Shown one piece after another: positions 1,819 to 29,886 of a stretch of 45,103 nt of DNA. Every line of letters starts with the position of its first letter. Positions within the stretch are counted from its first letter, which is position 1. Source of the DNA: Ferruginibacter sp. (lineage in GTDB: Bacteria > Bacteroidota > Bacteroidia > Chitinophagales > Chitinophagaceae); assembly GCA_025350645.1 (NCBI GenBank), contig JANXXM010000175.1, positions 1-45,103 of the forward strand. Reading direction: 5' to 3'. The position numbers and the translations under genes were made by a program. The notes below the pieces were generated by a model. It was not told the DNA's origin, did no database searches, and worked only from the letters and a program-made list of their open reading frames with translations.

Positions 1819-3108
1819 ATGATAATCTATAAAATTTTACGTACTGTTTTTTTTGTTCTTTTTTTTAGTTACCCAACATTTTCTTTTGCGCAGATACCAG
1901 ATAAAATTTACAAACCTTATATAGCTACTGCACAACTTTTTCAATATGGCAACCAGTTGCAACTACCTATTTATACACTTAATAGCGGCGATAAATTTGA
2001 ACTGGATTTTGATGACCTGGAAGCTAATTTTAAAAGTTATTATTATAGCTATGTACTGTGCGATTATGACTGGAAGCCAGTGGATATTTCTTCTTTTAAT
2101 TACATAAAAGGCTTTACGCAAAACAGGATAACTTCCTACCGGTATTCTGCCATTGCATTTACAAAATATACCCACTATCAGGTTATTTTGCCCGATCAGA
2201 ATGCTGTGCCCACAAAATCTGGTAATTACTTGCTAAAGGTTTATACAGATGGCGATACCGCAAAACTTGCTTTTACCAAACGCCTGCTGGTGCTGGATAA
2301 CAAAGCTACTGTAGCTGCAGAAGTGGTGCAGCCGGTATCTGCACAATATTTTACCAATAGTCAAAAAATAAGATTTGCAGTAAACACTGGGGAGCTAAAC
2401 GCTTTTAGTGCTGCGCAACAAATAAAAGTGGTAGTGCTGCAGAATAACCGGTGGGATAATGCTCAGCGGGATATAAAACCCACATTTGTACGGGGAAATG
2501 TGCTGGATTACAGCAACGAAAATATTGCACTTTTTCCTGCAGGCAAAGAGTGGCGGTGGCTGGATCTGCGCAGCTTTCGCCTGCAAAGCGATCGTATAGA
2601 CCATGCAGATTATGGAAAAAATTTTACAACTATGTATGTAAAAAATGATGTAGACAGAAGTGCACAACGTTATTTATATTACCCGGATTATAACGGCACT
2701 TACAGCACTACAACTTATGAAAGTATAAACCCTTTTACACAGGGAGATTATGCTACGGTAAATTTTAGTTTTGCACCGCCTGGCGGGCTGCCTTATAAAA
2801 AAAATCTTTTTATAGCCGGGCAGTTTACTAATTATGAACTCACAGAAAAATACAAAATGAAGTTTAATGAAGATACAAAATTGTACGAGGGCAGTGTATT
2901 TATGAAGCAGGGATATTATGCTTACACCTATATTTTTGCTGATGAAAAAGGAGGAGATTATTTAAACACACTCGAAGGAAATTATTGGGAAACAGAAAAT
3001 AATTACACTATACTTATTTATTACAAAAGTTTTACAGACCGCAGCGATCAACTAATCGGAATAGGACAGGTAAACTCCCGAAGAGACAGGCCTGGCATAA
3101 GTTTTTAA
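1819..3108 (+). CDS. Type IX secretion system plug protein (DUF5103)
   Basis: A 429-residue secreted protein with an N-terminal signal peptide of about 24 residues ending SFAQ. The sequence pattern is that of DUF5103, now called the T9SS plug protein. In Flavobacterium this protein binds the periplasmic face of the SprA translocon and closes its channel. Typical elements are an opening like PDKIYKPYIATAQLF, the YYYSYVLCDYDW segment, and a C-terminal beta domain with NLFIAGQFTNY. It indicates that the organism secretes by T9SS, consistent with the secreted PKD protease at the end of the window. It is transcribed away from the permease gene and ends at a strong hairpin terminator shared with the convergent GLPGLI gene. 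Confidence 0.85.
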   Translation: MIIYKILRTVFFVLFFSYPTFSFAQIPDKIYKPYIATAQLFQYGNQLQLPIYTLNSGDKFELDFDDLEANFKSYYYSYVLCDYDWKPVDISSFNYIKGFTQNRITSYRYSAIAFTKYTHYQVILPDQNAVPTKSGNYLLKVYTDGDTAKLAFTKRLLVLDNKATVAAEVVQPVSAQYFTNSQKIRFAVNTGELNAFSAAQQIKVVVLQNNRWDNAQRDIKPTFVRGNVLDYSNENIALFPAGKEWRWLDLRSFRLQSDRIDHADYGKNFTTMYVKNDVDRSAQRYLYYPDYNGTYSTTTYESINPFTQGDYATVNFSFAPPGGLPYKKNLFIAGQFTNYELTEKYKMKFNEDTKLYEGSVFMKQGYYAYTYIFADEKGGDYLNTLEGNYWETENNYTILIYYKSFTDRSDQLIGIGQVNSRRDRPGISF

Positions 3109-3145
3109 ATAACAGCGCCCTTTAATTATCGAAGGGCGTTGTTAT
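3109..3145. terminator. Bidirectional intrinsic terminator between convergent genes
   Basis: Arms 3111-3122 (aacagcgccctt) and 3132-3143 (aagggcgttgtt) pair over 12 bp with one G-U wobble and extend by two A-T pairs (3109-3110 with 3144-3145). The loop is nine bases. T-rich DNA follows on the plus strand and A/T-rich DNA on the other side. It sits between the stop codons of two convergent genes. Confidence 0.85.
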
Positions 3146-3157
3146 TTATTTAAAAAA

Positions 3158-3922
3158 TTATAAAAGCAATGTCCAGATAAATCTGTTTTTTTGTTGTTTA
3201 TTTTCATCACTCTCATCTCCTTCATCAAACCAGTCTTTTGTACGTTCTTCTACAGTTGTTTTTACAAATGCATTGCTAAGATATTTTTTTGCTATAGATG
3301 GTTTAATAATGTCTGTATTTATACCATTTACATTTACTCTTGTTGCTATCCACGAAGTGTACAACCTGGGTATAGTTACACCCATTATCATACCTGGGAG
3401 GCCACTTATAGAACATGGCCCGCCGGGTATTAAAATTTCATCAGTATAAAATGCAAATACATACACACTGTCAAACATTTTCGCTACTGCTTTGCGGCAG
3501 TTAAAACCGGCAATGTTGCGACTTTCGGTTGTAATGCGCCATTCCAGTTTTGGCAAACTGTCTTCTATGTTGAACACAGAACCAAATACATTTTTCTGCA
3601 TGTTTATTTTGTGACTGTCAAAATCCATAAACCATACACTTTCTTCATCTGTCTTGCGCATAAATTCCGGTAGCTTAGTATCTGCACTCCACCTGTCAAA
3701 CTTATAAATACTTTTATTATTGGCAAAAGTATAGTTAAAATAACCTGTTTTAAAATTAGAAGAATTTTTCATCATGGCCTCATCCCACGAGCTGTTTCCC
3801 ATTGTTTTTTTTATGTTGGATTTCATTTCGTATTCTATGGCAGCTTTATCTATAAACTGCTGTGCAAAACTGCTATTTGCAAGGGCAAAAAAAGCTATTA
3901 CAAAAGTTATGAGCGTCTTCAT
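3158..3922 (-). CDS. GLPGLI family secreted protein
   Basis: A 254-residue protein with a signal peptide (MKTLITFVIAFFALANSSFAQ). It carries the signature that names the family: GLPGMI at residues 174-179, in the context GGPCSISGLPGMIMG. A conserved Cys lies before it (FNCRKA, about residue 142), as does an aromatic FYTDEI strand. The function of GLPGLI proteins is unknown. In Bacteroidota they are commonly encoded next to outer membrane barrel proteins, as here: it starts 23 bp after the barrel gene at 3946-6717, on the same strand, so the two are probably one operon. The C-terminal quarter is charged, with a DEGDESDENK segment. Confidence 0.88.
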   Translation of the reverse strand: MKTLITFVIAFFALANSSFAQQFIDKAAIEYEMKSNIKKTMGNSSWDEAMMKNSSNFKTGYFNYTFANNKSIYKFDRWSADTKLPEFMRKTDEESVWFMDFDSHKINMQKNVFGSVFNIEDSLPKLEWRITTESRNIAGFNCRKAVAKMFDSVYVFAFYTDEILIPGGPCSISGLPGMIMGVTIPRLYTSWIATRVNVNGINTDIIKPSIAKKYLSNAFVKTTVEERTKDWFDEGDESDENKQQKNRFIWTLLL

Positions 3923-3945
3923 TTTTTATTTTTTTTTGGTGATGA

Positions 3946-6717
3946 TTATTTAGCTTTTACTGCTTTGTTTTTAAAATTCCACGTAAAACCGAGCATCCAA
4001 TAGCGTTGCAGGCGTTCATTTCTTGTTTCGGTAAATGTATTACCGTCAAAATTTCTATCCAATCCTGTATTTTGGTTTAAAATATCTCTTATGCTTATAT
4101 AAGCAGTAAACTCATCTTTTTTAAAAGTACGTTGAAGGCGGGCATTCCATAAAGAATTATTAAAAGCTGGCGCCTGTGCTGTTTTTTGCCTGTAAAATAA
4201 TTCGTAATCGCTCTTTAGCGACCATACTTTTTTGTAATAAACAGTTCCATTAAAGGATACCCTGTTCGTGATATACTTAATATTACTATTACTTTGGAAT
4301 GTTTTACTGCGATTAAAATCCAGGTTTTCAGAAAAATTTACATCATACTTTTTTTCCTTGCTTTTAGATATGTCGAAAGATGTACCGGCATTAAGATTTT
4401 CAGAAAAAGTTTTAATGCTATTGATAACATCAGCATACTTACTATATCCTCCATTGGCATTTACAAAAAATCGAGTATCAATTTTTTTAACTTTAAAACC
4501 AGTACCTCCCCAAAAATTTACATTTACATTACCATTGGTATTTATGGGTTGTGTGGTGGTAGCACCTGTGTTGTAATTAATAATTCGGTTATTAGTTATA
4601 GAATTGTTTGTAAGGCTTACGTTAAGAGATTGATACGTCCAAACGTCTTTTATAAAATTGTAACTGTTGTGTGATATACTAAAATTATTACTGAACGATG
4701 GCTTTAGATCTGGGTTTCCAATATATTGGTTGAACAGATTATCGTTAACTCTAAGGGGCTGTAATTGATTCAATGTAGGCTGGCGGGTATTTCCATTATA
4801 GTTAATGCGCAGGTTATGGCTGGCTTTGTAGCTATAGTTTAACCCTGCAGAGGGAAAAAAGTTTGTGTAATTTCTATTATAATTTTTATTCAGAGATAAA
4901 TCTTTAAATTCAAAATTGGTTAACGCAATACCAGCACCTGCATTTATTTTAAATTTTTTGTAACTGTAGTTTATTTTAGCGGATGGTGTATGCTGTACTA
5001 TATTTTGTTTAAAATAGTTGGAAAGTGAATCTACCTTTGATTCGTACTTATTAGTGCCTGGTGCTTTAGTAAAAGTTGTTTGATTGTTGTTACCATTATC
5101 AAACCCAATCTGGTAGCCTAATTCCAGCGCATATTTTTTCCCCAATGGTTCTGTATAAATAAATTTTGAAGTGAAGTCAGTGGTAGTTTTATCAAAATCC
5201 TTCATTTGATCTATAAGCTGTGTACTATTATCAAATTTTATAAAATTGGACGATTGCAAATAATTTTTACCATTACTCTGCTGGTTCTTCCAATCTGCAT
5301 TTATAGAAAAAGTTCTTCTGGCAGTTTTAAACTTGTGCTTAAAAACAAGGTTGCCGGAGAGTGCTGTTTTATCACTTTGGGTTTCATATATTTTTGAAGA
5401 ACTATTTCTAAGCAACCCACTTTGATCAGTAGTAGAAGAGAAACTTTTCTCCTCACTTTCCACATGATAAAAATTGGTATTGCCAGTAAGTTTTAAGGTA
5501 TTTGTGCTATCCAGTTTTGTTTCAAGAATAGCTCTCGCTTTAAAGTTATACCGGTTTATATTTTTTGCAGATAAACTGTTTTCATTTAATGAACTATCTC
5601 CATTCAGTAATGTTTTACTATAAGTAGAATTTGTATTATCATAAGATTGCCGGTTGTATTTTGGCGAAATATTTATGGTGCTTTTTTCCCCTGCCTTATT
5701 GCTGTATTGTATACCCGCATTTACGCTGGTTAAAAATCCATTTTGCGGATTTATATAAACTTCTTCATCGCTGCCGCGGCTTCCATCATAGTAAGAAAAA
5801 CCAGCATCCTCATCTACCACCATATTATCACTTCCGCCGCCAAATTTCTGTTCGTCCTGCCAGCTTAATCCATCTTGCCCCGTATTTCCATTTAATACGA
5901 AGCCGGATATTTTTCTTTTTCCTTTAAATGAACTCAGCAAAATATTATCATTATACCTGTCTTCTATCTTTTTTTGTAATCCTCCGGCCACATCTACTTT
6001 ACCAAAATATCCATGCTTTTTATCTTCTTTCAGTTTCAGGTTAATGGTCTTTTTAGTTTTGCCATCATCAATTCCGGTAAACTCAGCCTGTTCGCTTTTT
6101 TTATCAAAAACCTGTACTTCTTTAACAGCATCTGCCCTTAAATTTTTTACGGCCATGCCAGGGTCATCACCAAAAAACTCTTCGCCATCTACCAAAACTT
6201 TTTCTACTGTTTCGCCCATGGCTTTAATTTTTCCGTCTTTATCTACCTGTATGCCTGGCATTTTTTTAAGCAGCTCTTCTACATTTGCGTTGGCGCTTAC
6301 TTTAAAACTATCTGCAGTGTATACCGTTGTATCTCCTCGCAGTTTTATGGGGTTACCAGATTTTACAATTACTGCTTCCAGCAATTTACTTTTAGAGGTT
6401 AATGCAATGCGGGAAATTTTTTCGTTTGCATCATTTACTTTAATGTCATCTACAAAATCAGCAAAAAGGGGATGGGTAACAACTAAAATATATTTACCCG
6501 GTTTAATGTTTTGTATAGTATAGTTACCGTCTTCTTTTACCCTTGCAAAGCCCGCCAATACAGAGTCTTTAGGTGTAAGCAATGATACCACTGCATTTTT
6601 TACTTTTATATTAGAAGAGGTATCCTTTACAGAACCAGTTACTTGCGAAACCGTTTGTGCATTGGCATTTTTAATAAAACAGAAAATGGCAATTAGGAGT
6701 AAAAATTTTTTTATCAT
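3946..6717 (-). CDS. Outer membrane beta-barrel protein with carboxypeptidase-regulatory and plug domains (OMP_b-brl_3 type)
   Basis: A 923-residue TonB-receptor-like protein. A signal peptide (about 1-20) is followed by a carboxypeptidase-regulatory-like beta sandwich (about 22-108) and a plug-like region (about 120-240) with the motif PGIQVDKDGKI and an EEFFGDDPG segment. A long barrel with many aromatic-ended strands runs to the end (FTWNFKNK). No SusD partner is present, so it is not a SusCD polysaccharide system; the downstream partner is the GLPGLI gene. It resembles the protein at 27094-29886 through the plug region (QVDKDGK, EFF, FTG.DDG, GYFG). The ligand is unknown. It is divergent from glgB over about 127 bp. 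Confidence 0.88.
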   Translation of the reverse strand: MIKKFLLLIAIFCFIKNANAQTVSQVTGSVKDTSSNIKVKNAVVSLLTPKDSVLAGFARVKEDGNYTIQNIKPGKYILVVTHPLFADFVDDIKVNDANEKISRIALTSKSKLLEAVIVKSGNPIKLRGDTTVYTADSFKVSANANVEELLKKMPGIQVDKDGKIKAMGETVEKVLVDGEEFFGDDPGMAVKNLRADAVKEVQVFDKKSEQAEFTGIDDGKTKKTINLKLKEDKKHGYFGKVDVAGGLQKKIEDRYNDNILLSSFKGKRKISGFVLNGNTGQDGLSWQDEQKFGGGSDNMVVDEDAGFSYYDGSRGSDEEVYINPQNGFLTSVNAGIQYSNKAGEKSTINISPKYNRQSYDNTNSTYSKTLLNGDSSLNENSLSAKNINRYNFKARAILETKLDSTNTLKLTGNTNFYHVESEEKSFSSTTDQSGLLRNSSSKIYETQSDKTALSGNLVFKHKFKTARRTFSINADWKNQQSNGKNYLQSSNFIKFDNSTQLIDQMKDFDKTTTDFTSKFIYTEPLGKKYALELGYQIGFDNGNNNQTTFTKAPGTNKYESKVDSLSNYFKQNIVQHTPSAKINYSYKKFKINAGAGIALTNFEFKDLSLNKNYNRNYTNFFPSAGLNYSYKASHNLRINYNGNTRQPTLNQLQPLRVNDNLFNQYIGNPDLKPSFSNNFSISHNSYNFIKDVWTYQSLNVSLTNNSITNNRIINYNTGATTTQPINTNGNVNVNFWGGTGFKVKKIDTRFFVNANGGYSKYADVINSIKTFSENLNAGTSFDISKSKEKKYDVNFSENLDFNRSKTFQSNSNIKYITNRVSFNGTVYYKKVWSLKSDYELFYRQKTAQAPAFNNSLWNARLQRTFKKDEFTAYISIRDILNQNTGLDRNFDGNTFTETRNERLQRYWMLGFTWNFKNKAVKAK

Positions 6718-23456: not shown

Positions 23457-24137
23457 TTATATTTTTGCATTATCCCACACTTTTCCTATTTCGGTTTTAA
23501 TAGTTCTTGCAGGAAATTTATTTATCACTACATAATCATGTGTGGCCATTACAATGGTTGTACCAAAATCTCTGCAAATGTGAAACAGCAGTTGCATTAT
23601 TTCATCACTCGTTTCAGGATCCAGATTTCCTGTAGGCTCATCTGCCAATATCAATTTGGGAGAATTAAGCAATGCTCTAGCTACATCTATTCTTTGCTGC
23701 TCGCCGCCACTCAGTTCAAAAGGCATTTTAAAACCTTTGGTTTTTAGGTTTACTTTATCCAGTACATCGGCAATTTTTTCATCCATTAATTTTTCATCCT
23801 TCCAGCCGGTAGCTTTAAGTACAAATTTTAAATTTTCATTTACATTTCTGTCTGTAAGCAATTGAAAATCCTGAAATACTACTCCTAAATTTCTTCTTAA
23901 AAAGGGAATGGTTTTCCATGTAAGTTCCCGCAGGTTATGTCCCACTACTGTCCCCTGCCCTTCTGTAAGTTCCAGATCGCCATATAATGTTTTCAATAAA
24001 CTGCTTTTGCCAGTACCTGTTTTTCCTACGAGATATACAAACTCGCCTTTATCTACTTTTATGTTTACTTCGCCCAATACCAATGTATTACTCTGGTAAA
24101 TATTTACGCCATTTAATTCAATGATAGCTTCTGCCAT
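23457..24137 (-). CDS. ftsE: FtsE-like ABC transporter ATP-binding protein
   Basis: A 226-residue ATPase with Walker A GKTGTGKSS (38-46), a Q-loop in VVFQDFQLLTDRNV, signature LSGGEQQR and Walker B LILADEPTGNLD, then the H-loop ATHD. The VFQDFQLL and ENLKFVLKATGW segments fit FtsE, the partner of FtsX that activates septal peptidoglycan hydrolases. No ftsX is adjacent; instead a GT2 gene follows 3 bp downstream. A LolD-like ATPase is the main alternative. Confidence 0.82.
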   Translation of the reverse strand: MAEAIIELNGVNIYQSNTLVLGEVNIKVDKGEFVYLVGKTGTGKSSLLKTLYGDLELTEGQGTVVGHNLRELTWKTIPFLRRNLGVVFQDFQLLTDRNVNENLKFVLKATGWKDEKLMDEKIADVLDKVNLKTKGFKMPFELSGGEQQRIDVARALLNSPKLILADEPTGNLDPETSDEIMQLLFHICRDFGTTIVMATHDYVVINKFPARTIKTEIGKVWDNAKI

Positions 24138-24347: not shown

Positions 24348-24388
24348 ATAACTAATTTATTAGTTATTAAAACTAAATAATTAGTTTT
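24348..24388 (+). promoter_or_regulatory. Tandem dyad operator upstream of the BlaI-type repressor
   Basis: Two perfect 20-bp dyads stand side by side. The first (24348-24367) is ataactaa-N4-ttagttat and the second (24369-24388) is aaaactaa-N4-ttagtttt. Both share AACTAA-N4-TTAGTT, and their centres are 21 bp apart, two helical turns. They end 18 bases before the ATG at 24407 and would cover the -33 promoter region; a TAnnnTTTG element at 24395-24403 follows. The ACTA/TAGT core resembles known BlaI-type operators, so autoregulation by the downstream repressor is inferred. The rest of 24138-24347 is AT-rich and shows nothing else clear. Confidence 0.82.
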
Positions 24389-24406: not shown

Positions 24407-24769
24407 ATGATTAAGCCTCTTACAAAAGCCGAAGAACAAATAATGCAGGTGTTATGGAAATTAAACAAAGCATTCTTGAGAGAGATAATGGAAGCACTGC
24501 CAGAGCCAAGGCCACACAGCAATACGGTAGCCACCATTGTAAAAATACTGGTAGAAAAAGAATTTATTGGTATTACACTTTTTGGCCGCACACACCAGTA
24601 CCATTGGCTTGTAAGCAAAGATGCGTATAGCAAAGCCACTATGAAAACATTTGTAAAAGGATATTTTGAAGGCAACTTTAGCAATGCAGTTTCCTTTATG
24701 GTAAAAGAAAATAATTTAAGTATAAGCGATCTTGAGTTATTGCTGAAGGAACTAAAGAAGAAAAGTTGA
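24407..24769 (+). CDS. BlaI/MecI/CopY family transcriptional repressor
   Basis: A 120-residue winged-helix repressor. The DNA-binding part is LTKAEEQIMQVLWKLNKAFLREIMEAL with the recognition helix region PHSNTVATIVKILVEKEFI and a GRTHQYHWL wing. A C-terminal dimerisation helix follows. An in-frame TTG at 24401 exists, but the ATG at 24407 gives the standard N-terminus. In the classical system this repressor is cleaved after the partner M56 membrane protein is activated. Here that partner is encoded 61 bp downstream, and a tandem operator lies directly upstream. Confidence 0.92.
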   Translation: MIKPLTKAEEQIMQVLWKLNKAFLREIMEALPEPRPHSNTVATIVKILVEKEFIGITLFGRTHQYHWLVSKDAYSKATMKTFVKGYFEGNFSNAVSFMVKENNLSISDLELLLKELKKKS

Positions 24770-24830
24770 ATAAATACATTACTTGCAAAAAAAATCTGTC
24801 ATTCATATTGCAGAAAAAATTTTTTACATC

Positions 24831-27065
24831 ATGATAGCATTTTCCTATTTTTTATTAAAAGGTATTATTTGCTCCGCTGTTTTGTTTTGTTATTATTGGT
24901 TGCTGCTGCGCAATAAAGTTTTTCACGCATATAATCGTTTTTATTTACTGGCCATTGTGCTGCTGTCAATAACATTGCCCACTTTAAAAATTAATATTTT
25001 TAATGAGCCACAGGTACAGCAAACAAATTTGATAAAAATATTACAGATTGTTACTGCCAGCGATGATTTTATGGATGATATTATTATTGCTCCTGCAAAA
25101 CAACAGCTCACCTTAAAAGACATGCTACCATTTTTATACCTGCTAATAAGTGTGCTATTTTTTATACTGTTTTTGCAAATGTTTATAAAGATCCGTACCC
25201 TTTTAAAACAATACAAAAGCATATTGATAGAAGATATACATTTTGTAAATACTAATGCAGCAAGAGGCACCCCTTTTTCATTTTTAAAATATATTTTTTG
25301 GAACGAAAATATTGATATGCACAGCCCAACGGGCAGCCGTATTTTTCGCCATGAGATAGCGCATATACAGGAACGGCATACCTGGGATAAACTTTTTATA
25401 AACCTGGTACTTATCGTATTTTGGAGTAACCCCGTATTTTGGGTTATACGCAGAGAACTGAATATGATACACGAATTTATAGCTGATAAGAAAGCTGTAC
25501 AAGATGGCGATACCGCTGCATTTGCCACCATGATTCTCGCTGCCACCTATCCGCAACATTCTATTGCGATTGCAAATAATTTTTTTTATTCACCTATAAA
25601 ACGAAGACTCGCCATGATCACAAAAAACCAACACCCCCGCACAAATTACATTAGCCGGCTACTGGTGTTACCGCTTGCTGTACTGGTATTTGCTGCCTTT
25701 ACTTTAAAGGCAAGGCATTATAATGAACCAATAAAAAATGAAATAAAATCTAACGAAATTAATAGGGGCTTAACGGAAATTATAACCGTAGTAATAGATG
25801 CAGGCCATGGTGGCAAAGAGGGTGGTGCTTTTGCAGATGATGGTACCCAGGAGAAAGATGTTACACTGGCTTTAATCAAAAAAATAAAAGCGCTAAACAC
25901 CAATGATAAAATAAATATTATTCTTACCAGGGAAGATGATATTTACCAAGATCCGAGAGAGAGAGCAGCTTTTTCTCAAAAGTATAATGCAGATTTATTT
26001 GTGAGTATTCATTTAGACGTAGCAATTAAAAAAAATGACGACCATAGCGGTTTAAGTATTTTTACCAGTAATAGCGATGGTGATAAAGGGGAAAAGAGTA
26101 AACTATTTGCAAGCGTAGTTATTGGCCAGTTTAAAAACAATTTTAAATTATTAGTTGCAAATACAGCAATGCAAAGGCACAAGGGTATATGGGTACTGGA
26201 TGCCAATACGGTTCCAGCCATTTTAATAGAAGCTGGTTATATGTCCAACAAAAACGATTTGGCTTATTTAAAATCTGATGAAGGTCAGGAAACATTTGCA
26301 AAAAATATTTTGAATGCAATAAGCAATTTTGCGGCAAATAAAAATATTTATAAAACCAATATCGACAAAGGAGTGAGAGATACGCCTCCGCCTGCAGCAA
26401 CCATTTTGCCAAATGGCAATAGCATTAGTATAACCAAAGTGCCTGATACAATTGAAAACAAAGAACTTTTAAAACACCCACGGATAACTGATGTAACTAT
26501 TGATTTGGATAATAAGTATAAACCAGTATTACAGGGATTAATTTTAATAAACGGAAAGGAATACAATATTGAAGCATTAAATAATAAATTGATAAAAGGC
26601 GGTACAGCCACATTTTATAAAGCAGGCAACCCGCAATTAATAAAAAAGTTGGGAGAGAAGGCAAGAAAAGGGGCTATGATTATTGAGAATGCTGTAGTAT
26701 TAGAAGGAACCCCGGGTATAGAAAAATACAAAAATTCTCTACATGTAAAAATGGATTCTATTTATTTTGTAGATGCTAGCCAAAGAATAAAATACATTGA
26801 TTCTATTAAGGATGGCAAAGTAATCCCCACAAATTATTCATCTGCGCTCATAGTTATAAATGGAAAAATATCCAGCCAAAAAGCATTAAAGGATATACCT
26901 ACAAATAATATAAAAGATATTAAAGTATTAAAAGGAGCAGAAGCTACAAAAAAATATGGGAAAAATGCAACTAGTGGAGTTATAGAAATAAATACAAAAG
27001 CGGCTCCAATAGAAAAAGATAATGAAATTAAAATTGAAGGAAATGTTACGATTTCCAACCCATAA
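24831..27065 (+). CDS. M56 (BlaR1-like) membrane peptidase fused to an N-acetylmuramoyl-L-alanine amidase and a plug-like tail
   Basis: A 745-residue, three-part protein. The N-terminal M56 part has membrane helices (about 5-26, 36-55, 105-125, 190-210) and the zinc motif HEIAH at 174-178, with HEFIADKKA as third-ligand region. A further helix (about 275-295) leads to the periplasm. Next comes an Amidase_3 domain (about 318-500) with all expected zinc and catalytic residues: H326 (DAGHGG), E341, H394 (SIHLD) and E467 (LIEAGYMSN). The tail (about 540-745) has one degenerate and one good TonB-plug-like segment (IVINGKISS to GVIEINTK). The frame opens at a TTG at 24783, but the ATG at 24831 gives the usual M56 N-terminus. 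BlaR1 normally has a penicillin-binding sensor where the amidase sits. Confidence 0.9.
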   Translation: MIAFSYFLLKGIICSAVLFCYYWLLLRNKVFHAYNRFYLLAIVLLSITLPTLKINIFNEPQVQQTNLIKILQIVTASDDFMDDIIIAPAKQQLTLKDMLPFLYLLISVLFFILFLQMFIKIRTLLKQYKSILIEDIHFVNTNAARGTPFSFLKYIFWNENIDMHSPTGSRIFRHEIAHIQERHTWDKLFINLVLIVFWSNPVFWVIRRELNMIHEFIADKKAVQDGDTAAFATMILAATYPQHSIAIANNFFYSPIKRRLAMITKNQHPRTNYISRLLVLPLAVLVFAAFTLKARHYNEPIKNEIKSNEINRGLTEIITVVIDAGHGGKEGGAFADDGTQEKDVTLALIKKIKALNTNDKINIILTREDDIYQDPRERAAFSQKYNADLFVSIHLDVAIKKNDDHSGLSIFTSNSDGDKGEKSKLFASVVIGQFKNNFKLLVANTAMQRHKGIWVLDANTVPAILIEAGYMSNKNDLAYLKSDEGQETFAKNILNAISNFAANKNIYKTNIDKGVRDTPPPAATILPNGNSISITKVPDTIENKELLKHPRITDVTIDLDNKYKPVLQGLILINGKEYNIEALNNKLIKGGTATFYKAGNPQLIKKLGEKARKGAMIIENAVVLEGTPGIEKYKNSLHVKMDSIYFVDASQRIKYIDSIKDGKVIPTNYSSALIVINGKISSQKALKDIPTNNIKDIKVLKGAEATKKYGKNATSGVIEINTKAAPIEKDNEIKIEGNVTISNP

Positions 27066-27093: not shown

Positions 27094-29886
27094 TTACATG
27101 CCCGGTGGTGATCCTCCCATCATTCTCATACCTCCGCCGGGCATTGTCATCTGCCCACCTTGTTGTGTACCACTAAATTTATTTAACCTAAGCACAAAGC
27201 TCAGCATAACATACCTACCCAGCCTGTTTGTTCGGGTATCGGTTATGGCGTTGCCAGTAACACTCCTGCTCACACTTATATTTTCGTTAAGCAAATCAAA
27301 AGCCTGCAATTTTAGAGAGGAGTTTTTCTTTTTAAACAATTGTTTTTCTAGTGTTGCGTTTATAATAAGCGGGTTTGCACTTACACTGTTTGCATAGCCG
27401 GAGTTTATGCTTTTATCCAGATCGTAACTAAAATTTACATCATGCTTAAAAAACATTCTCGATGAGTGAGTGATACTTATAGAATTGATTTTACTATTAT
27501 TATAGGAACTAAGGCTATATTTATTATCATTGAGCGAATAGTTAATACCGCCGCTGGTTTCCAGCCATTTTTTTATTTTATAATCTATAGAAAAACGCTG
27601 ACTGATCACAAAATTATTTCCTTTGTTTTTTTGAAAATTTAAGTAAGAAATATTATTATTGTAGTTGATGTTGCCACCAATATTAAAAACATATTTTCTG
27701 TTTTGCAATGGTTTGCTTACGGTATAAAATGCGTTTACATTATAATAGCCATTTGCGTTTAAATATCTCGTTTCCTGTATACCTCTATCCCGGGGTATAA
27801 TGTTGCTCACAATTTTATCTTTAGTAAACGATGCGCTTAGGTTACTAAAAAAAACATCGCCACTTACAAAATTAAAGTTGTTATAGCGCATGCTAAAAGT
27901 ATTGCTAAACTCCGGTTTAAGATCTGGATTACCTAATATAATATTTTGCCTGTTGCTATAATCATACACCGGCTGAGACTGTTGATAAGTGGGCTGGTTG
28001 GTGCTTCCATTGTAATTCAAATTAAAAGAACGGCTCCTGGAAAAATTGTAGGCTACCCGTATTACAGGAAAAAAGTTTACCAGGTTTTGTTTGTAACTGG
28101 TAGCATTTTTTGTAAATGAATTGCTTTCAATTGTAGCTGGCTGTATTGCAACACCAATAGTATAATTATATTTTTTTTGTACAGTTCTAAAATTTATTCC
28201 AAACCTGTTTGTAATATAAATATTTTCATAAATATTGGTGAGACTATCTACCAGTGTTTTTATATTACCGTTTACATCAAAGGTTTCTTTATCGTTTCTT
28301 ATAAATCTTTTGTTGAAGGCATAATTAAATTCCAGGCTTCTTTTTTTTGATAACTGTTCATTAAAAGATGCAGTTACACCATAATTGTGGTTATCATTAT
28401 TCTGCGAAATAAATTGATCTATTACCGGTAACCCTTGCGGGTAAGTGGTTTGGTTAAAAATATCATCAGTAGCATCTGTAGTGGATTTGCCAGCAGTAAA
28501 ATTTAAAGAAAGTGTTCTGCCCTTTTTGTGAAAGCGGTGATTGTATAAAATATTTCCGGAGTAATTGGGTGTTTTAGATTCGTTCATATCTGTATTAAAC
28601 CCAGTATTTATTACAGCACCTTTGTTATTAAAATAATTAAAGTCAGACCGGTAATTATCATTTATTTTTCGATAAGTAACCGTGGGGTTAAATTTTATAT
28701 AATTAAAAGAATCCACTTTATACTCTATATTAAAAGAAAAACGATGGTTATCTGTAATTGAATAATCCTTGTTGCTTTGGTTATTGGTAAATGTTTTTGT
28801 ACTGTCTGCCTGCACATTTTGTTGGTTAATATCTGCAATCAAGGTATTTGTTTTTTCAGAAAAACTATAACTGCCATACGCCGATATTTTGGGCGACCAG
28901 TCATCCCTGTAGTTTGCACCAATAGATTTCATAATGCCGATACCATCTGAATTACCGCCAAAAAAATTACTGCCACTGCCCCCACGTATACCGCCGAAAC
29001 TTCTCATCATGCTGCCTGCAATTGCCCCCATACCGCCTGGCAATGAACCAAAATCAAAAGTATTTGCATTGGTATTATTTATATTACCCGTTAATGATAA
29101 TTGCTGATTGCCTTTAAATTTATTTACGGAGAGTGAAGCCAGGTAACGATCCTGCGTTCCAGCTCCTGCAGAGGCTGTCCCAAAATATCCTTTATTTTTA
29201 TCCTTTTTTAATTGTATGTTCAACGTTTTAGTAGGGTCACCATCTTTTACCCCGGTAAATGCAGACTGGTCTCCATAGTCATCAATGATCTGAATTTTAT
29301 CAACCATATCGGCATTCAAATCTCTGGTAGCCGTTTTTACATCTCCGCCAAAAAATTCTTTCCCATTCACTTTTACTTTGGTTACTTCTTTTCCCTGTGC
29401 CGTTATTTTTCCATCTTTATCTACCTGCACGCCCGGCAGGTTTTTTATGATGGCTTCTACATTATCATTTTTGCGATACATGGTACTGTCTACTTTATAC
29501 GATACCGTATCTTCTTTTATTTGTACCCTGCTGCTTTCCAGCGTTACGGTTTCCAGCATATTATCGCCAGGTGTCATAATAATATCCGGTATCACTGCCT
29601 CTCCTTTTGCCGCAGTATTATCGTATACATCATTAAATTTTTTGTACCCGATATACGAAATAATGATACCTGTTTTACCCGGCTTTACATTTAAAAAACG
29701 ATAAACACCTTTTATATTAGTAATAGAGCGAAGCGTGTCTTTACCACCAGCTGTGTATAATAAAACAGTAGCATTCTGCAAGGGTTTGCCATCATCAATT
29801 TTGGCTGTACCGCTTATAGTTACTGTATTTTGAGCTTGTACCAGCATAGAAATTAAAATAGCAAGAAGGGTAAAAATAAATTTCAT
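27094..29886 (-). CDS. Outer membrane beta-barrel protein with carboxypeptidase-regulatory and plug domains (second copy)
   Basis: A 930-residue protein with a signal peptide (MKFIFTLLAILISMLVQAQ), a carboxypeptidase-regulatory-like domain (about 20-110), a plug region (PGVQVDKDGKITAQGK, KEFFGGDVKTATRDL) and a long barrel. The architecture is the same as the protein at 3946-6717. Two Gly/Met-rich segments stand out: a loop near 285-315 (GGMGAIAGSMMRSFGG) and a C-terminal tail after the last barrel strand (MPGGGMRMMGGSPPGM). No GLPGLI or SusD gene is adjacent. It converges with the M56-amidase gene with a 28-bp gap. A promoter element lies at 29916-29923. Ligand unknown. Confidence 0.87.
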   Translation of the reverse strand: MKFIFTLLAILISMLVQAQNTVTISGTAKIDDGKPLQNATVLLYTAGGKDTLRSITNIKGVYRFLNVKPGKTGIIISYIGYKKFNDVYDNTAAKGEAVIPDIIMTPGDNMLETVTLESSRVQIKEDTVSYKVDSTMYRKNDNVEAIIKNLPGVQVDKDGKITAQGKEVTKVKVNGKEFFGGDVKTATRDLNADMVDKIQIIDDYGDQSAFTGVKDGDPTKTLNIQLKKDKNKGYFGTASAGAGTQDRYLASLSVNKFKGNQQLSLTGNINNTNANTFDFGSLPGGMGAIAGSMMRSFGGIRGGSGSNFFGGNSDGIGIMKSIGANYRDDWSPKISAYGSYSFSEKTNTLIADINQQNVQADSTKTFTNNQSNKDYSITDNHRFSFNIEYKVDSFNYIKFNPTVTYRKINDNYRSDFNYFNNKGAVINTGFNTDMNESKTPNYSGNILYNHRFHKKGRTLSLNFTAGKSTTDATDDIFNQTTYPQGLPVIDQFISQNNDNHNYGVTASFNEQLSKKRSLEFNYAFNKRFIRNDKETFDVNGNIKTLVDSLTNIYENIYITNRFGINFRTVQKKYNYTIGVAIQPATIESNSFTKNATSYKQNLVNFFPVIRVAYNFSRSRSFNLNYNGSTNQPTYQQSQPVYDYSNRQNIILGNPDLKPEFSNTFSMRYNNFNFVSGDVFFSNLSASFTKDKIVSNIIPRDRGIQETRYLNANGYYNVNAFYTVSKPLQNRKYVFNIGGNINYNNNISYLNFQKNKGNNFVISQRFSIDYKIKKWLETSGGINYSLNDNKYSLSSYNNSKINSISITHSSRMFFKHDVNFSYDLDKSINSGYANSVSANPLIINATLEKQLFKKKNSSLKLQAFDLLNENISVSRSVTGNAITDTRTNRLGRYVMLSFVLRLNKFSGTQQGGQMTMPGGGMRMMGGSPPGM

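Follow-up and report, generated by a model that had tools for sequence, protein, structure and literature searches.

What is a peptidoglycan amidase doing on a BlaI-linked membrane protease, at the position where BlaR1 and MecR1 carry their penicillin-binding sensor? This question is raised by a two-gene operon in the window, i.e. the whole 45,103-nucleotide stretch of Ferruginibacter sp. DNA that was analysed, and the possible answers are that the amidase senses the wall, cuts it, or merely holds the protein to it. The answer we prefer, and to which we give an even chance of being right, is that the operon encodes a self-regulating, one-operon receptor system of BlaR1/BlaI type, with a peptidoglycan amidase fold taking the place of the penicillin-binding sensor.

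The operon and its BlaR1-like receptor

The operon and the protease part of the receptor comprise the following features:

24407-24769, + strand: blaI, a BlaI/MecI-type repressor gene (ATG at 24407, stop codon ending at 24769; Penicillinase_R profile)
24831-27065, + strand: gene for the M56-amidase-plug receptor, 744 residues (reading frame, Pfam, model)
24834-25625, + strand: BlaR1-like membrane and M56 gluzincin part, residues 2-265 (Pfam M56; superposition)
25350-25364, + strand: HEIAH zinc motif, residues 174-178 (H, E and H in 152/152 fused proteins)
25473-25475, + strand: third M56 ligand, E215 (152/152)
25650-25706, + strand: last membrane helix, residues 274-292 (hydropathy peak; helix at 280-291 in the model)

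The repressor matches Pfam Penicillinase_R with 93.9 bits (cut-off 22.6; E 1.1e-26) and, by sequence, the structures of MecI (3.1e-08) and BlaI; profile and winged-helix sequence place it in the BlaI/MecI/CopY family. A gap of 61 bases separates blaI from the receptor gene, whose open frame spans 24783-27065, with ATG 24831 as the likeliest start and 744 codons free of internal stops. Pfam reports Peptidase_M56 (35.9 bits, cut-off 31) and Amidase_3 (145.1 bits, cut-off 27) in the receptor, and its AlphaFold model (mean pLDDT 77.4; 92 aligned sequences) is of high confidence in the M56 and amidase cores and of low confidence in the linker (292-308) and parts of the tail. Model residues 4-254 superpose on BlaR1 chains, the best match being residues 4-243 on that of S. 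aureus (8ext; Z 15.9, rmsd 3.5 over 203 residues, 16% identity), and Foldseek likewise finds the membrane/protease fold of BlaR1 (E 6.6e-06). A single-sequence search of the M56 part against the PDB gave zero matches at E ≤10, so that it is the fold and the Pfam profile that tie it to BlaR1 structures. As in BlaR1 and MecR1, a cognate BlaI/MecI repressor is encoded in the operon and an M56 gluzincin site of HExxH, Glu and Asp is placed between membrane helices; H174, E175, H178, E215 and D219 are invariant in all 152 distinct fused proteins, and the His-to-Asp spacing is identical (H174/D219 in the receptor, H201/D246 in BlaR1). According to the available text of PMC9834060, BlaI is a direct substrate of BlaR1, and BlaR1 cuts itself at a site (Phe284) that precedes a helix whose Arg294 completes the active site. 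In the receptor, Phe252 (150/152), K257 and R258 (151/152) and R259 occupy the place of these two residues, and are compatible with both self-cleavage and cleavage of BlaI.

Hydrophobic peaks lie at residues 2-26, 39-57, 101-119, 188-206 and 274-292, and the loop ahead of the last helix (254-279) has six K+R and zero D/E. From hydropathy, loop charge and the BlaR1 superposition, the M56 core is likely cytoplasmic and the amidase periplasmic, as the initial annotation had it; its placing of the amidase in the sensor position past the last helix also agrees with the Amidase_3 match and the BlaR1-like fold and topology. The Pfam and NCBIfam matches at E ≤1 include no penicillin-binding sensor domain, Amidase_3 standing in its place, and the receptor is therefore not a BlaR1 by membership. 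By plan, as far as sequence can tell, it would work like one.

Distribution of the fusion and probable control by its own BlaI

Recurrence of the fusion across many genomes rejects a frameshift or an assembly join of two genes, which the initial annotation had named as a possible flaw; uniqueness to the genome itself is rejected by the presence of the fusion in relatives. In a sample of 59 genomes (own genome and relatives), 16 of 36 genus genomes hold the fusion, two of these cut by contig ends, and a spanning match occurs in none of the 23 genomes from other families of the order. Across the family, at least 112 of 394 Chitinophagaceae genomes carry it (at least 113 spanning rows, one of which, G283, contains stops), and the best 80 of 255 relatives include Ferruginibacter, Terrimonas, Sediminibacterium, Lacibacter, Flavisolibacter, Agriterribacter and other Chitinophagaceae. 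Among the matches listed for 298 genomes of the order (E 1e-50), no spanning match lies outside the family, while 395 genomes of the phylum gave one (G874; a protein of 475 residues that ends past the amidase), and re-examination of 12 outside-family loci gave one fused protein (G790). The spanning criterion misses some cases: G660 was matched over M56 only, yet its protein holds an amidase (L345). The fusion is concentrated in Chitinophagaceae and not confined there, with all counts being lower bounds. The rarity that the initial annotation implied thus gives way to an architecture that is common in this family of environmental organisms. The G874 and G790 proteins (L300 and L355), from other families of the class, are M56-amidase fusions with divergent M56 parts, the former with a BlaI gene upstream and the tail absent; they are possibly separate fusions. 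A first census (111 loci plus the window) gave 109 spanning frames, of which 17 near-identical ones were dropped to leave 92; the larger one had 189 sources, 185 of them spanning (L007, L019, L169 and L184 being without a spanning frame), and after 33 were dropped left 152 distinct fused proteins, nearly all from Chitinophagaceae. In open PMC papers we found no description of an M56-amidase-plug protein with BlaI, and the available portions of PMC12204202 and PMC10710014 contain nothing on an M56-amidase architecture.

The control region and the upstream neighbour are as follows:

24350-24365, no strand: operator dyad 1, AACTAA-N4-TTAGTT (the pair is conserved upstream of blaI in relatives)
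24371-24386, no strand: operator dyad 2, 21 bp downstream of dyad 1 and just before blaI
23457-24137, - strand: divergent FtsE-like ATPase gene, a context neighbour (best NCBIfam match FtsE)

The fused gene is preceded by a BlaI gene at 148 of the 149 loci that could be tested (the exception is L287), which, together with the Penicillinase_R and Peptidase_M56 matches, confirms the pairing of repressor and protease with which the initial annotation began. At these loci the usual paired operator is ACTA-N6-TAGT. A strict pair is found at 117 of 147 BlaI-bearing loci (the 148 minus one with too little sequence before blaI), at least one dyad at 28 more, and none at 2. Where the upstream sequence reaches 480 bases or more, as it does at 147 loci, there are 116 strict pairs and 31 loci without; the spacing of the dyads is 20 bp in 113 of the 116 pairs and 21 bp in three, and just past dyad 2 a TAnnTTTG box, which we take to be the Bacteroidota -7 element, is present in 66 (3.5 in shuffles). 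With operators at the promoter, the operon is very likely controlled by the BlaI that it encodes. The genus sample of 59 genomes has 26 paired sites in 25 genomes (reversed control, 1), 25 of which stand before blaI. The exception, G013:C19:3505-3539 (L063), is the sole pair in this sample without an adjoining BlaI gene, and could be a further target. The own genome contains the perfect dyad ACTAA-N4-TTAGT five times (twice for the reversed control): two at the window operon, one before a second BlaI-M56 pair and two elsewhere. A wide regulon was rejected, as the latter two have no evident promoter role; judging from open reading frames, one (C93) adjoins a Rieske-like gene and the other (C136) lies within a restriction-subunit-like reading frame. 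Paired-site searches of the own genome and the genus sample found no further BlaI targets beyond the operon, and judging from these motifs BlaI is very probably the repressor of its own operon, with few other targets at paired sites. The second BlaI-M56 pair of the genome (L002; G000:C153:1541-2829) resembles the window operon in the operator pair that precedes blaI; its tail is repetitive and contains no amidase, and cross-talk between the two repressors is possible.

Since the paired operator is found almost only at the receptor operon (one site excepted in the genus sample), the obvious product of the switch is the receptor itself. This is a point in favour of the chief rival to the amidase as sensor, namely the amidase as effector: a dosage-controlled, membrane-tethered wall amidase, the amount of which M56 protease and BlaI would match to another signal. 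For reasons that follow from the amidase domain we regard this rival as unlikely, if still worth serious consideration.

The FtsE-like neighbour scores 231.7 bits against NCBIfam FtsE, below the cut-off of 264.85. A divergent ftsE is present in 30 of 62 loci and absent from 23 others despite more than 2.5 kb of upstream sequence, and co-regulation of ftsE with the operon is not backed, given those 23 loci. The adjacency itself proves little because ftsE belongs to a wider conserved gene block. FtsEX governs amidase activation in E. coli, and the neighbourhood may be meaningful or merely inherited synteny. On the other side, the receptor gene is followed in the window by a gene for an OMP_b-brl_3 outer-membrane protein (27094-29886, - strand), a position at which many relatives carry purM and ribF-like genes.

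Binding, cutting and the variable tail

The part of the receptor beyond the last helix contains the following features:

25782-26348, + strand: Amidase_3 domain, residues 318-506 (Pfam; Z up to 29.0 against Amidase_3 structures)
25806-25808, + strand: zinc ligand H326 (152/152)
25851-25853, + strand: zinc ligand E341 (152/152)
26010-26012, + strand: zinc ligand H394 (152/152)
26229-26231, + strand: catalytic Glu E467 (kept in the window copy; replaced in 13/152 relatives)
26538-26705, + strand: first plug-like module, residues 570-625 (model alone; Pfam gives no match)
26844-26996, + strand: second plug-like module, residues 672-722 (Pfam Plug; model)

The four amidase residues, counted from ATG 24831, are exactly those named by the initial annotation; their roles as zinc ligands and catalytic Glu are assigned from the Amidase_3 family. 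Residues 315-505 superpose on the Amidase_3 crystal structure 4rn7 with Z 29.0 (CwlV and AmiC, Z about 27), and the window copy thus has the fold, the three zinc ligands and the catalytic Glu of the family. The zinc ligands are invariant in all 152 fused proteins. The catalytic Glu is kept in 139, including the window copy, and replaced in 13 (Q in seven, H in two, and D, G, N and A in one each). The tree needs 11 such changes, of which well supported branches account for at least 10, most simply read as at least 10 independent losses, with the qualification that the trees come from quick searches, that some of their branches are long, and that state changes do not separate loss from regain. 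Stand-alone Amidase_3 proteins from genus, family and order keep the Glu in 62 of 62 cases (64 entries minus L323 and L327, which are fused and cut by a locus end), a difference from the fused proteins with a Fisher p of 0.022 on rows that are not independent. BlaI and the operator pair are retained in all nine Glu-less operons checked (L089, L090, L091, L108, L122, L127, L133, L136 and L138); Glu-less L123 has too little upstream sequence for this count, and the later additions L290 and L291 are without a strict pair. On these alignments and trees, several lineages can do without the catalytic residue, and cutting has very likely been lost in the 13 members. Because the Glu has changed at least 10 times with the zinc ligands and the protease site unchanged, sensing is favoured as the conserved duty of the domain, i.e. 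binding rather than cutting. The initial annotation's "sense or trim" therefore holds best in its first half, with trimming possible in the window copy; its suggested tie to wall damage is conjectural.

The same changes of the Glu, with all else kept, count against an effector amidase, as do orthologous operons that have no amidase at all. For it speak the full catalytic set in 139 of 152 proteins, which indicates that cutting is usually still selected, and the short core of the fused domain, without the insert of most stand-alone enzymes seen (third ligand to Glu, 62-82 residues in fused proteins; 62-63, 109-113 or 134-165 in stand-alone ones). A loss of cutting also bears on a second alternative, in which stem peptides released by the amidase would pass into the cytoplasm and themselves target BlaI. 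Here gamma-D-Glu-m-A2pm is a precedent with B. licheniformis BlaI: in the available text of PMC3305447, two of 20 compounds, both peptidoglycan dipeptides, dissociated the complex of BlaI and operator when present at about 2 mM. This route needs the very activity that 13 of 152 proteins have very likely lost, and BlaR1 is reported to cleave BlaI itself, with no further component (PMC9834060, available text); we consider it highly improbable.

The amidase-free operons are informative in their own right. L332, L334, L339, L343 and L344 encode M56 proteins with plug modules and no amidase, and have the operator pair and the ftsE-like neighbour; L020 differs from its nearest fused relatives by the absence of the amidase. 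As these sister operons work without it, the amidase is not essential to the switch, and at least six fused/unfused changes on well supported branches of the M56 tree indicate that it was gained or lost more than once. In L331 (G094:C4:70000-76000), a separate membrane-anchored amidase gene (1523-2362), situated between ftsE and the blaI operators, accompanies an amidase-free M56 protein (2858-4657). This amidase is of the fused type, being 42-46% identical to fused domains as against 28% for stand-alone enzymes, and the locus is a probable fission of the fused gene.

As to the tail, the TonB-plug-like end proposed at first stands as two small plug-like modules, and not as a full plug domain. 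The Pfam Plug match is marginal (24.5 bits, cut-off 23.9) and covers positions 56-107 of 107, half of the profile, and the protein ends soon afterwards, in place of the full plug and beta-barrel of a TonB-dependent receptor. Could the tail (plug-like, TonB_C or GldM-like) or the linker nevertheless be the sensor, with the amidase merely anchoring the receptor to the wall? Amidase-free sister proteins retain such tails, and of 86 relatives' tails, some of them cut by locus ends, 54 have a Pfam match to TonB_C and 52 one to Plug. Tails nonetheless vary widely, with fewer than 40 residues beyond the amidase in 6 of 91 relatives' proteins, set against an invariant amidase zinc site, and we hold a sensing tail to be improbable. 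M23 modules are reported by Pfam in 2 of 86 tails. Third-domain matches to GldM (GldM_3rd), part of the gliding and type IX secretion motor, are present in 7 of 86, those of L149 and L101 beside TonB_C.

A candidate wall-state sensor and its known relatives

The repeated loss of the cutting residue, and never of the metal site, makes it probable that the receptor senses the cell wall and tunes the expression of its own gene. With the amidase as sensor, we infer the following sequence of events. BlaI dimers, by predicted binding to the two operators over the promoter, would keep the operon down. The receptor would span the membrane, its M56 zinc protease on the inner side and Amidase_3 on the outer, the latter binding peptidoglycan and, in most lineages and probably in the window copy, also able to cut it. 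Wall material held by the amidase fold would alter the state of the protease across the membrane; once activated, this would cleave BlaI and release the operon, so that the first product of the signal, and its main output, would be more receptor and more BlaI. In a more specific form, put forward tentatively and with rather less than even confidence, the amidase fold and its zinc site would recognise periplasmic wall peptides, as a pseudoenzyme in some lineages, making the system a self-amplifying wall-state gauge with a mainly self-reporting BlaI switch. If true, the BlaR1 plan is not tied to antibiotics, and M56/BlaI would be a platform on which sensors are swapped in general, the penicillin receptor being one example. 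To our knowledge, few wall-state sensors are known in Bacteroidota, and with two genes and one promoter the system is a compact, widespread candidate, the natural variants of which, without catalytic Glu, amidase or tail, would make sensing separable from cutting.

Compared with known systems, the receptor domain shares fold and zinc ligands with the Amidase_3 enzymes (CwlV, CwlD, AmiA/B/C and the membrane amidase LytH), and the Glu in most members, but differs from them in its fusion to a BlaI-linked protease, the repeated loss of that Glu and the short core. The BlaI-M56-plug operons of Chitinophagaceae, i.e. the six amidase-free loci above, share repressor, protease, operator pair and ftsE-like neighbour, and differ in having no amidase domain. 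Relative to BlaR1/BlaI and MecR1/MecI of staphylococci and Bacillus licheniformis, the receptor has Amidase_3 in place of the penicillin-binding domain, plus an extra plug-like tail, and the operon is without a resistance gene: it contains no gene for a beta-lactamase or resistant PBP, and the paired operator marks no other gene of the own genome (single or weaker sites being possible) and is self-only in the genus sample. What the systems have in common is a BlaI-type repressor with operator dyads, a membrane protease of BlaR1 type whose catalytic residues and their spacing agree, and a sensor domain derived from a wall enzyme and placed beyond the last membrane helix.
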